Assembly: GCF_017873555.1 (NCBI RefSeq)
Contig: NZ_JAGGKE010000005.1
Coordinates: 1 to 64,000, forward strand
Direction: 5' to 3'
From: Halorubrum trapanicum
Lineage (GTDB): Archaea > Halobacteriota > Halobacteria > Halobacteriales > Haloferacaceae
Length of the DNA stretch: 64,000 nt
The notes below the pieces were generated by a model. That model saw only the letters and a list, made by a program, of their open reading frames with translations, made no database searches and was not told the DNA's origin. Made by a program: the position numbers and the translations under genes. How positions within the stretch are numbered: the first letter of the stretch is position 1; every line of letters starts with the position of its first letter. Below, one piece after another: positions 56,232-58,422 of this stretch.

Positions 56232-56495
56232 ATGTCGTCCGATGAGCCTGAAGTAACCACGGTAACCTCGAAGGGACAGATCACGATCCCGAGTACACTC
56301 AGAGACCAATTCGGACTCGAACAGGGGACGAAGCTCATGGTCGTCCCGACGGAGTACGGTCTCGTGTTGAAGAAAGTCGACCTCCCATCGATCGAAGAGT
56401 TTCAACAGCGTGTTGAAAACCGGACGGACGCGGGCGAAACGTCTCTCGACGAGGTCACTCGACTCGTCCACGAGGCGCGGGGCAGCGACGAATGA
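56232..56495 (+). CDS. AbrB/MazE-type antitoxin
   Basis: This 87-residue protein begins with the AbrB swapped-hairpin motif EVTTVTSKGQITIPSTLRDQFGLEQGTKLMVV (residues 7-39) and ends in a helix likely to bind its toxin. The stop overlaps the start of the PIN gene by ATGA, the classic order of VapB-like antitoxin and VapC-like toxin. It may be part of the accessory content: the upstream region (56100-56230) is AT-rich and contains an inverted-repeat-like CTTGCGTAAGGAATTCTTAC stretch. Confidence 0.88.
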   Translation: MSSDEPEVTTVTSKGQITIPSTLRDQFGLEQGTKLMVVPTEYGLVLKKVDLPSIEEFQQRVENRTDAGETSLDEVTRLVHEARGSDE

Positions 56496-56905
56496 GGGCG
56501 GTGCTGGATACGAACGTCTTCATCTCGGGCGTCATCGCAACCGGTGTGCCACACGAACTTCTCGTCAAGGGATTCGAACGCGAGTACCAGATCGTCGTTT
56601 CGGTGGAAACGCTCACCGAGTTCCGTGAAACGCTGCTCAAGTACCCAGAGCGCTTTCACATGAGCGAACACGAGGTACAACAAGAAGTCGAACTGGTCCG
56701 ATACTGTTCGGAGTTCGTCGATCCGCAGGAAGACATCACGGCTGTTGAGGCGGACCCCGACGACGACAAGTTCCTTGAAGCGGCCGTCGCCGGTGGCGTC
56801 GATTACCTCGTCTCCGGCGACGGACACCTGCTCGATCTCGACTCGTTCCGTGGGATCGATATCGTCGAACCGAGGACGTTCTATGATCGACTCGACGCGT
56901 CGTGA
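56492..56905 (+). CDS. PIN domain toxin
   Basis: This 137-residue protein has the PIN catalytic acids: D6 in MRAVLDTNVFISG, the EFRETLLKY glutamate, the DPDDDKFLEAA aspartate cluster and the final SGDGHLLDL aspartate. It belongs to the PIN_3/COG1569 group. As VapC-like RNases, such proteins cut tRNA or mRNA and are restrained by the antitoxin encoded just upstream. Activity is inferred from the conserved acids only. Its 3' end faces the hairpin array. Confidence 0.9.
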   Translation: MRAVLDTNVFISGVIATGVPHELLVKGFEREYQIVVSVETLTEFRETLLKYPERFHMSEHEVQQEVELVRYCSEFVDPQEDITAVEADPDDDKFLEAAVAGGVDYLVSGDGHLLDLDSFRGIDIVEPRTFYDRLDAS

Positions 56906-57009: not shown

Positions 57010-57320
57010 CGACGACGAACGCCTCCAAATCCCCATCCAGCACCGCAGCCTCGTACCTCCTCAGCCTCGTCAGTCGCCCGTCGCTTCGCTCCGGGCGACT
57101 GACTCCAGCGAGAATCTTCGATTCTCTGGCCGCCGGCGCGTCGCGCCGGCGACAGTGCGAGAGCGAAGCTCTCGCTTGAAACCGGACGGAGTCCGGTGAC
57201 AGCGAGGCGCGACGCGCCTCTGGCAGTCGGGCGAAGCCCGACGACCTCGCGCGTGCGGCTCACGGCCGCCGAGAGCGGCCGCTCGCCGGTACACGCCGCC
57301 GCGCTGGTGTTTATAAGTAA
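57010..57320 (-). repeat. Dispersed repeat family, copy 3 (inverted, deleted form)
   Basis: Between the convergent PIN and Dph2 genes, 470 bases without a gene hold an inverted, shortened copy: read on the minus strand it has GACGAGGCTGAGGAGG, then GGTGCTGGATGGGGATTTGG, so the block with the long stem seen in copies 1 and 2 is absent. The core is followed, on its 5' side on the minus strand, by the hairpin array 57071-57281. A TATA-like GTTTATAAGT lies at 57309-57318 on the plus strand. 56906-57009 shows nothing clear. Confidence 0.65.
57071..57281. repeat. Tandem array of eight perfect stem-loops
   Basis: Eight stem-loops lie end to end. Positions and stems: 57071-57101 (10 bp, 11-base loop), 57110-57126 (7 bp, TTC loop), 57131-57151 (9 bp, GTC), 57157-57175 (8 bp, GAA), 57181-57197 (7 bp, GGA), 57204-57220 (7 bp, GAC), 57226-57242 (7 bp, GAA) and 57263-57281 (7 bp, 5-base loop). 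The stems differ in sequence but all pair perfectly, with linkers of four to eight bases in the central run. Six loops are three bases. Its role is unknown. Confidence 0.85.
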
Positions 57321-57378: not shown

Positions 57379-58422
57379 TTACCAGGTGTCGTGGAACGTG
57401 TCGAACTCGATCGAGTCGAGCGGCTTCTCGCCGATCGCGGCCTCGTACTCGCCGGGCGTCAGCATCGGCTTGTGGAACCGCGGGCCGTCGTCGGTCGTGA
57501 TCCGCGGACAGCCGGTGTTGACGAACGCGTCCATGTCGAAGTTCCGCAGGCGGTCCGGCGTCACCTCGTCCATCGTGATCAGGTAGGCGTTCTCGTTGTT
57601 GTCGACGATCTCCTGGGCCTTCTCCCAGCGGCCCTGGCCGATCTTGGTACAGAAGATGACGCCCCACTTCTCGGCGTCCATCGCCTTGTGGACCGCGGCG
57701 TAGCGCTGCTTGAGGAACTGGTCGTGTTCGGCGACCGACACGGCGTTGTTGACCGGGTCGGCGATGACGACGCGCTTGTCCGGGTGCTCCATCGCGAGCC
57801 CGACCGGGTGGAACTTCCCGCCGCCGACGTACAGCACCTGCTCGGCGTCGATGTCCGCGGAGGCGTAGTTACAGCCGAGCACCTGCCCCTCCTTCGTGAG
57901 GCGGTCGTCGCCCCGGCGGGTGTGAACCTCGTAGCCGCGCTCCTCCAGCCAGTCCGTCATCTCCTCGAAGCGGTTCATGTGCTGAGCCGTCGTGACGAGG
58001 CCCACGTCGGCGTCCTCCTCCGGCGGGGACAGCTCCTCTTCCAGCGCGTCCTCCATGATCGGGAACGGGTCGACGTTCGAGAACAGGGGGACGTAGACGA
58101 TGCTGTCGGACTCCTTCATCGGCGTGTGACCGAAGTGGACGAACACGTCCGTCCGGCGCATCAGGTACGTGTCGAGGTCGCAGGCGCCGTAGCAGGGCTG
58201 CCCGGAGAGCATGAACGTGACGTCGTCGGGGGCGACCTCGCGGAGGTCGTCGGCGACCTTCGGGCCGCGGCGCTTGAGCCCCTCGGGGAACTGGAGACCG
58301 ACCTTCGAGGCGTCGCGCTCCTCGATGGCCTCGAGGATCCGGTCGAGTTCGTAGTCCCACTCGCGGTCGTGTTTCAGGGCCATCCCCGTTTTCGTGAGAT
58401 CGCCCTCCGTGGAGCCGCTCAT
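57379..58422 (-). CDS. dph2: Diphthamide biosynthesis enzyme Dph2
   Basis: This 347-residue enzyme starts diphthamide formation on elongation factor 2 using an unusual radical-SAM-type 4Fe-4S cluster. The three cluster cysteines are visible: GQPCYGACDLD near residue 77, VLGCNYA near 180 and VNTGCPRIT near 306. Length and N-terminus (RILEAIEERDASKVGLQFPEGL) are as expected for the archaeal homodimeric form. It is convergent with the PIN toxin gene across the repeat region. Confidence 0.94.
   Translation of the reverse strand: MSGSTEGDLTKTGMALKHDREWDYELDRILEAIEERDASKVGLQFPEGLKRRGPKVADDLREVAPDDVTFMLSGQPCYGACDLDTYLMRRTDVFVHFGHTPMKESDSIVYVPLFSNVDPFPIMEDALEEELSPPEEDADVGLVTTAQHMNRFEEMTDWLEERGYEVHTRRGDDRLTKEGQVLGCNYASADIDAEQVLYVGGGKFHPVGLAMEHPDKRVVIADPVNNAVSVAEHDQFLKQRYAAVHKAMDAEKWGVIFCTKIGQGRWEKAQEIVDNNENAYLITMDEVTPDRLRNFDMDAFVNTGCPRITTDDGPRFHKPMLTPGEYEAAIGEKPLDSIEFDTFHDTW

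Follow-up and report, generated by a model that had tools for sequence, protein, structure and literature searches.

Dispersed double-hairpin elements, in which two short perfect hairpins stand in tandem, occur in the mitochondria of fungi and algae. Among haloarchaea, the SMR-A and SMR-B repeats of Haloquadratum walsbyi are 80-110 bp long (SMR-A about 110 bp and SMR-B down to 80 bp) and have terminal inverted repeats; they insert into palindromes within palindrome-associated transposable elements (PATEs) and IS605-type elements without duplicating the target, and their mode of mobilisation is unknown (PMC3119063). In bacteria, Rickettsia palindromic elements (RPEs) of about 150 bp lie in-frame in unrelated protein genes (as reviewed in PMC10969869), and REPINs are inverted REP doublets that form one hairpin, are extragenic and are tied to RAYT genes (PMC3116915).

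The window analysed here is a stretch of 64,000 nucleotides of Halorubrum trapanicum (positions 1 to 64,000 of contig NZ_JAGGKE010000005.1). A sequence-only reading of this window had pointed out an array of stem-loops and proposed for it a role as a folded RNA, a recombination site or a barrier to transcription or replication. We consider it probable that the array instead arose where a non-autonomous mobile double-hairpin element of about 45 bp accumulated in three copies, placed head to tail and lodged in a large repeat at the junction between two of its stem-loops, and that this element moves as folded single-stranded DNA and has its arms copied.

Results

The array and its surroundings

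Eight perfect stem-loops, six of them with 3-base loops, are present at 57069-57281 (Table 1), as the sequence-only reading had described. Its range of 7-10 bp for the stems needs correction, because the triloop stems measure 7-9 bp and the first stem 12 bp, but the pairing is indeed perfect. The gap that holds the array, between an AbrB/MazE-PIN gene pair and dph2, is free of genes, as had been noted. The gene pair adjoining the array is likely a toxin-antitoxin pair.

The claim that the array is far beyond chance was borne out by 5000 dinucleotide shuffles of the 240-base region, in which triloop hairpins with stems of at least 7 bp numbered none in 4589 shuffles, one in 390, two in 20 and three in a single shuffle, against six in the region itself. 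Shuffling of the whole window (60 shuffles) gave at most three triloop hairpins per 133 nt. The array region had an RNA fold z-score of -5.2. The words between the hairpins are conserved (agc, tggca and gac) and the pairing stays perfect while the stem sequences differ. A CRISPR array was rejected, as it had been before, on the grounds that identical repeats are absent, the stems differ and the spacers of 4-6 nt are conserved; a CRISPR-DR20 match in Rfam was sub-threshold. The earlier view that the array is not a cluster of terminators was likewise supported. In the Rfam search no family scored above its gathering score, and the window gave sub-threshold matches only.

Table 1. Features of the array and its flanks, in positions of the window.
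Feature	Position	Strand	Sequence or remark
AbrB/MazE-like + PIN-domain gene pair	56232-56905	+	
Large-repeat leader word, degenerate	57023..57038	+	CTCCAAATCCCCATCC (consensus CTCCAAAGCCCCAGCC)
Large-repeat core P2	57056..57103	+	conserved CCTCCTCAGCCTC, then 12-bp stem with 11-nt loop; R2 match 57056-57133
Hairpin 1	57069-57103		12-bp stem, 11-nt loop
Double-hairpin unit 1	57107..57153	+	agc GAGAATC ttc GATTCTC tggcc GCCGGCGC gtc GCGCCGGC gac; R1 51.8 bits, E 2.3e-9
Triloop hairpin TTC	57110-57126		7-bp stem
Triloop hairpin GTC	57131-57151		9-bp stem
Double-hairpin unit 2	57154..57200	+	agt GCGAGAGC gaa GCTCTCGC ttgaa ACCGGAC gga GTCCGGT gac; R1 46.2 bits, E 5.5e-8
Triloop hairpin GAA	57157-57175		8-bp stem
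Triloop hairpin GGA	57181-57197		7-bp stem
Double-hairpin unit 3	57201..57245	+	agc GAGGCGC gac GCGCCTC tggca GTCGGGC gaa GCCCGAC gac; R1 66.8 bits, E 4.5e-13
Triloop hairpin GAC	57204-57220		7-bp stem
Triloop hairpin GAA	57226-57242		7-bp stem
Large-repeat core P3, 3' end of repeat	57246..57302	+	CTCGCGCGTGC ... inner hairpin 57263-57281 ... ACACGCCGCCGC; R2 match 57217-57302
Last hairpin	57263-57281		7-bp stem, 5-nt loop
TTTATAA box	57310..57316	+	just 3' of repeat; found after many other copies too; by eye
dph2	57379-58422	-	

The large repeat that hosts the array

When the array region was searched against its own genome, 79 matches were obtained. Two were nearly full length at 87-88% identity, and the rest had one or both ends in common with the middle partly or wholly missing. 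By reading about 40 of these copies in register, we recognised two layers, a large repeat and a smaller double-hairpin unit. The large repeat runs from leader words (CTCCAAAGCCCCAGCC), sometimes in tandem at a spacing of 54-66 nt, through a long stem P1 and a stem P2 (around GTCAGTCGCC/GGCGACTGAC) to a stem P3 ending in GCACGCGCCACCGCA. P1, which normally comes after the leader word, is missing from the window copy. Both P1 and P2 show strong covariation, and the P2 stem of the window differs in other copies with compensating changes. Between P2 and P3 there are 0 to 6 hairpins; the gap is empty in many copies, holds one double hairpin in many others, and holds three in a row in the window copy and in the two copies closest to it.

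Genome-wide counts here derive from model searches. R2, a covariance model of P2-P3, gave 140 matches at E<=0.01 in this genome of 3.08 Mb, some copies being split in two. In the class-wide sample, R2 matched 16 of 16 Halorubrum genomes and gave four marginal matches only in the other 130; the large palindromic repeat is essentially confined to Halorubrum. Beside dph2, this genome and five of 29 others (L012, L016, L022, L023 and L026) had large-repeat matches, with differing positions or orientations; G010 had an apparent truncated repeat end, and most of the 29 had nothing.

Several copies had features of their own. One to three tandem leader units (about 54-66 nt) lie upstream of the repeat in the own-genome copies L045, L046, L049, L051, L058, L074, L075, L076 and L077, many with a TTTATAA-like box and CTCCAAAGCCCCAGCC, and TTTATAA also occurs within about 30 nt after many large repeats. 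At L063 (188-292), a four-hairpin array with stems of 9-10 bp and triloops ttc, ttc, gga and ttc occupies the P1 loop in a layout resembling that of the window array. By eye, L043, L052, L057 and L066 carry the interior of P1 in the orientation opposite to that of most copies, which resembles a flip of the hairpin. The copies L086, L089 and L096 adjoin long G/C runs resembling assembly artefacts, and two of them are near contig ends.

The double-hairpin unit and its distribution

The unit has the form agc-H1-tggca-H2-gac and is about 45 bp long (45-51 bp). Its stems measure 7-10 bp, and a C-G pair closes its 3-base loops. Its model, R1, was built from a trimmed alignment; a MAFFT alignment of the raw units was set aside because stems of unequal length were misregistered. 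R1 gave 62 matches at E<=1 in this genome, about 54 of which were near or below E 0.001. A recurrence in related genomes, which the sequence-only reading had asked for, was found: R1 matched 50 of 53 Halorubrum genomes, with a maximum of 82 matches per genome. Within this genome, the array itself recurs in the two nearly full-length copies described above. At E<=1e-6, R1 matches extended to 83 of 146 genomes and 36 of 58 genera in the class sample. A pattern scan of GTDB species genomes returned only haloarchaea among the matches listed, and one exact unit pattern had no match in viral contigs.

Within the large repeat, the unit is not limited to the gap between P2 and P3. It also occurs at other places, in one orientation or the other: in the P1 arm (L002 and L041), at the 3' end (L041), inverted within P3 (L049 and L054) and in the P1 loop (L072). 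Comparison of large-repeat junctions with and without the unit revealed no duplicated target. When 223 distinct two-hairpin matches were classified automatically, 183 proved to be near large-repeat words, 25 were coding and 15 belonged to neither group. Related two-hairpin units were present in two of the 13 IS605-type (TnpB) loci of this genome. A second double-hairpin flavour, with longer stems, was seen at two IS605-type TnpB loci, L388 (1888-1940), where it lies within a near-terminal palindrome CCCCACCC...GGGTGGGG, and L395 (3010-3060, the same place as L208). In place of the stand-alone RNA, recombination site or barrier first proposed, the array is read as three tandem dispersed mobile units within a larger dispersed repeat.

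Units inside protein genes

All 25 coding matches were exactly 45 nt long, and 23 of them shared orientation and frame and encoded a peptide close to DSEARSASGSRTQSGD, although the classifier counted one site (L131) twice, once per strand, among the 25. Three genes, which we take from recognition of their translated sequences to be FdhF-like, TiaS-like and LeuC-like, offered filled and empty orthologous sites. In the FdhF-like gene the empty site reads AAG GAG GAC / GGC GAG and two species have 45 nt inserted there, so that the filled site measures 75 nt and the empty one 30 nt. In the TiaS-like gene the loop is 60 nt when filled (10 species) and 15 nt when short (at least 11 species), and the filled inserts are of 45 nt, or of 63-69 nt in three species. 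The LeuC-like gene has 258 nt in three filled cases and 213 nt in about 31 empty ones. No other evidence speaks as strongly for a mobile insertion as these differences of 45 nt between orthologous sites. A 3-bp duplication of GAC is possible at the coding sites, where a gac usually stands before the unit and another forms its end. Some coding copies have decayed (e.g. G018 and G046 at the TiaS site), which indicates that selection for perfect stems is not strong there.

In a histidine-kinase-like gene (L088, 773-862), two tandem units overlap a VEHGST motif, which suggests that a unit already inside a gene can be duplicated on the spot. In the LeuC-like gene, the unit occupies about the same residue in L112, L113 and L357 of Halorubrum and in L135 of another family. 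Such agreement between distant genera could stem from common ancestry, from transfer or from preference for one target.

Comparison with described elements and a possible role of Y1 transposases

Like the SMRs, the unit is haloarchaeal, non-coding by itself, present in tens to more than 100 copies and free of target duplication. However, its 45 bp (45-51 bp) fall short of the 80-110 bp of SMRs; it starts with agc, ends with gac and has different H1 and H2 stems where SMRs have prominent terminal inverted repeats; and it occurs in many genera and in-frame inside protein genes. SMRs target the near-terminal palindromes of PATEs and IS605-type elements; here, related two-hairpin units were found at two of 13 TnpB loci and many units in the large palindromic repeat, with others in genes. 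The lack of target duplication that marks SMRs is shared by the unit at large-repeat junctions, with the GAC ambiguity in genes. The large repeat itself resembles PATEs in being non-coding, palindromic, high-copy and invaded by small repeats (PATEs: PMC3119063), but it has no similarity to IS605-type ends in this genome. These ends were also tried as a source of the large repeat and were rejected: in 14 TnpB/TnpA loci of this genome, R2 matched nowhere with an E below 0.16, and BLASTN returned no long match.

RPEs, compared by description, share with the unit a palindromic nature and in-frame residence in unrelated genes, here represented by the single frame of the coding matches and by the filled and empty orthologues, but they are bacterial and about 150 bp long, whereas the 45-bp unit consists of two triloop hairpins and is also nested in other repeats. 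The mitochondrial double-hairpin elements, again compared by description, likewise have two adjacent hairpins as one dispersed unit, but are organellar. REPINs are similar in being non-autonomous doublets of short palindromes with compensatory changes; the unit differs in having two separate and unlike hairpins, in occurring in genes as well and in lacking a link to a Y1 gene. Since the unit fits neither the length and inverted repeats of SMRs, nor the inverted doublet and transposase of REPINs, nor the length of RPEs, we file it as a variant of short non-autonomous palindromic mobile repeats. No published description of the double-hairpin unit was found in the open-access literature.

The likeness to REPINs raises the alternative that the unit is a REPIN- or IS605-like element whose hairpins are recognised and moved by a Y1 tyrosine transposase. 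The two adjacent hairpins, the absence of a visible target duplication and the insertion into or beside palindromes and IS605-type loci all agree with this, and REPINs, as REP doublets, have been proposed to be moved by RAYTs (PMC3116915). We nevertheless regard it as rather unlikely, because the number of Y1 genes was uncorrelated with the copy number of the unit (rho 0.02) and 11 genomes free of Y1 genes had a median of 32 copies and up to 80. Moreover, the two hairpins of the unit are not inverted copies of each other, and the large repeat was not found at the ends of 13 TnpB loci. The search for a mobilising enzyme by counts of Y1 (IS200/IS605) transposases found none.

Stem pairing and loop sequences

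In 111 units, the stem pairs comprised 1643 Watson-Crick pairs, 9 G.T, 10 A.C and 11 others; the resulting 98% of Watson-Crick pairs refers to matches from a model built on perfect stems. The large-repeat stems, extracted by flanking words only, showed opposite biases, with one G.T against nine A.C mismatches in P1 and 15 against seven in P2.

GNA loops that are closed by C-G, as in d(GCGAAGC), make extraordinarily stable DNA mini-hairpins. The sequence-only reading had drawn attention to such triloops in the array, and across the family 125 GNA loops and 43 of the complementary TNC made up 168 of 222 (76%, against 12.5% by chance). The same stem may carry a loop or its reverse complement: GTCGGGC has gaa nine times and ttc six times, and GCCGGCGC has gta 14 times and tac four times. 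Loops have also flipped at the orthologous TiaS site, with tac in G044 against gta in G032 and G004, and with tgc in G052 against gca in G008.

These data bear on a second alternative, that the large repeat represents a family of structured non-coding RNAs, with the TTTATAA box driving transcription and selection on the RNA fold making the stems covary. The strong covariation of P1 and P2, the TATA-like boxes in the leader and the strong predicted fold would suit an RNA. However, a selected RNA should tolerate G.U on its own strand, which the units, gathered with a model of perfect stems, do not show. The equal numbers of G.T and A.C mismatches in the units, the loop flips and the residence in coding genes favour a structure kept at the level of DNA over selection on a transcript. 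The mismatch bias is inconsistent among P1, P2 and the units, copies differ by inversion of their loops and even of the P1 interior, the number of hairpins between P2 and P3 varies, the same units occupy coding genes in a fixed frame, and no Rfam match was found in the large-repeat loci at E<=0.1. We therefore consider an RNA family improbable. A process acting on DNA, such as cruciform or template-switch inversion, would yield just such inversions of loops and of the P1 interior, and we infer that arm identity is kept by the same process, although single mutations followed by slow compensation could be another source of the covariation.

Local origin, in which template switching during replication perfects short quasi-palindromes in place with no mobility, would account for the perfect stems, the loop inversions and the extra hairpins at one site (the 63-69 nt TiaS variants), but it is very hard to credit, because filled and empty sites differ by exactly 45 nt and because the words agc, tggca and gac and the stem bases common to unrelated genes, genera and intergenic sites require common descent of the unit.

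Discussion

We are highly confident that the element in the array is a mobile double-hairpin repeat, and hold with moderate confidence that a single-stranded-DNA mechanism and self-correction of the hairpins underlie its behaviour. The unit is dispersed; its 45 bp are inserted precisely, and insertions in the large repeat show no duplicated target; its stems are near-perfect and covary, and its loops are inverted between copies. It is nested in other palindromic elements and in IS605-type loci, and resides in-frame in genes. Against this explanation stands the point that no transposition intermediate was seen.

On the mechanism that we propose, the unit would move as a single strand of DNA in which two GNA triloops cap stable hairpins, and an enzyme acting in trans would paste it into single-stranded targets, preferably palindromes. 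Copying of DNA from arm to arm, by template switching within a hairpin, could then keep the stems perfect and would also flip the loops. Intergenic units are probably neutral passengers. In genes, survival may be limited to 45-nt copies in one frame, which would be translated into a hydrophilic loop peptide.

More tentatively, and with somewhat more doubt than belief, we suggest that these units represent an archaeal class of mobile single-stranded-DNA elements of about 45 bp, which consist of no more than two GNA-triloop hairpins kept perfect by self-templated correction, are moved by an enzyme and have repeatedly donated a 15-residue hydrophilic loop to haloarchaeal proteins. If this is true, few known mobile DNA units would be as small. 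It would also be the first archaeal mobile unit seen in-frame in many genes, as far as the open-access literature goes, and would directly change protein loops between species.

In our main reading, the array is the window's view of a class-wide mobile unit and not a one-off folded RNA. Filled and empty sites of the same gene in dozens of Halorubrum species provide a natural experiment on the movement of the unit, on the arm identity of palindromes and on the tolerance of proteins to inserted peptides. For the annotation and proteomics of haloarchaea, the recurrent peptide DSEARSASGSRTQSGD should be treated as an insert and not as a conserved motif.
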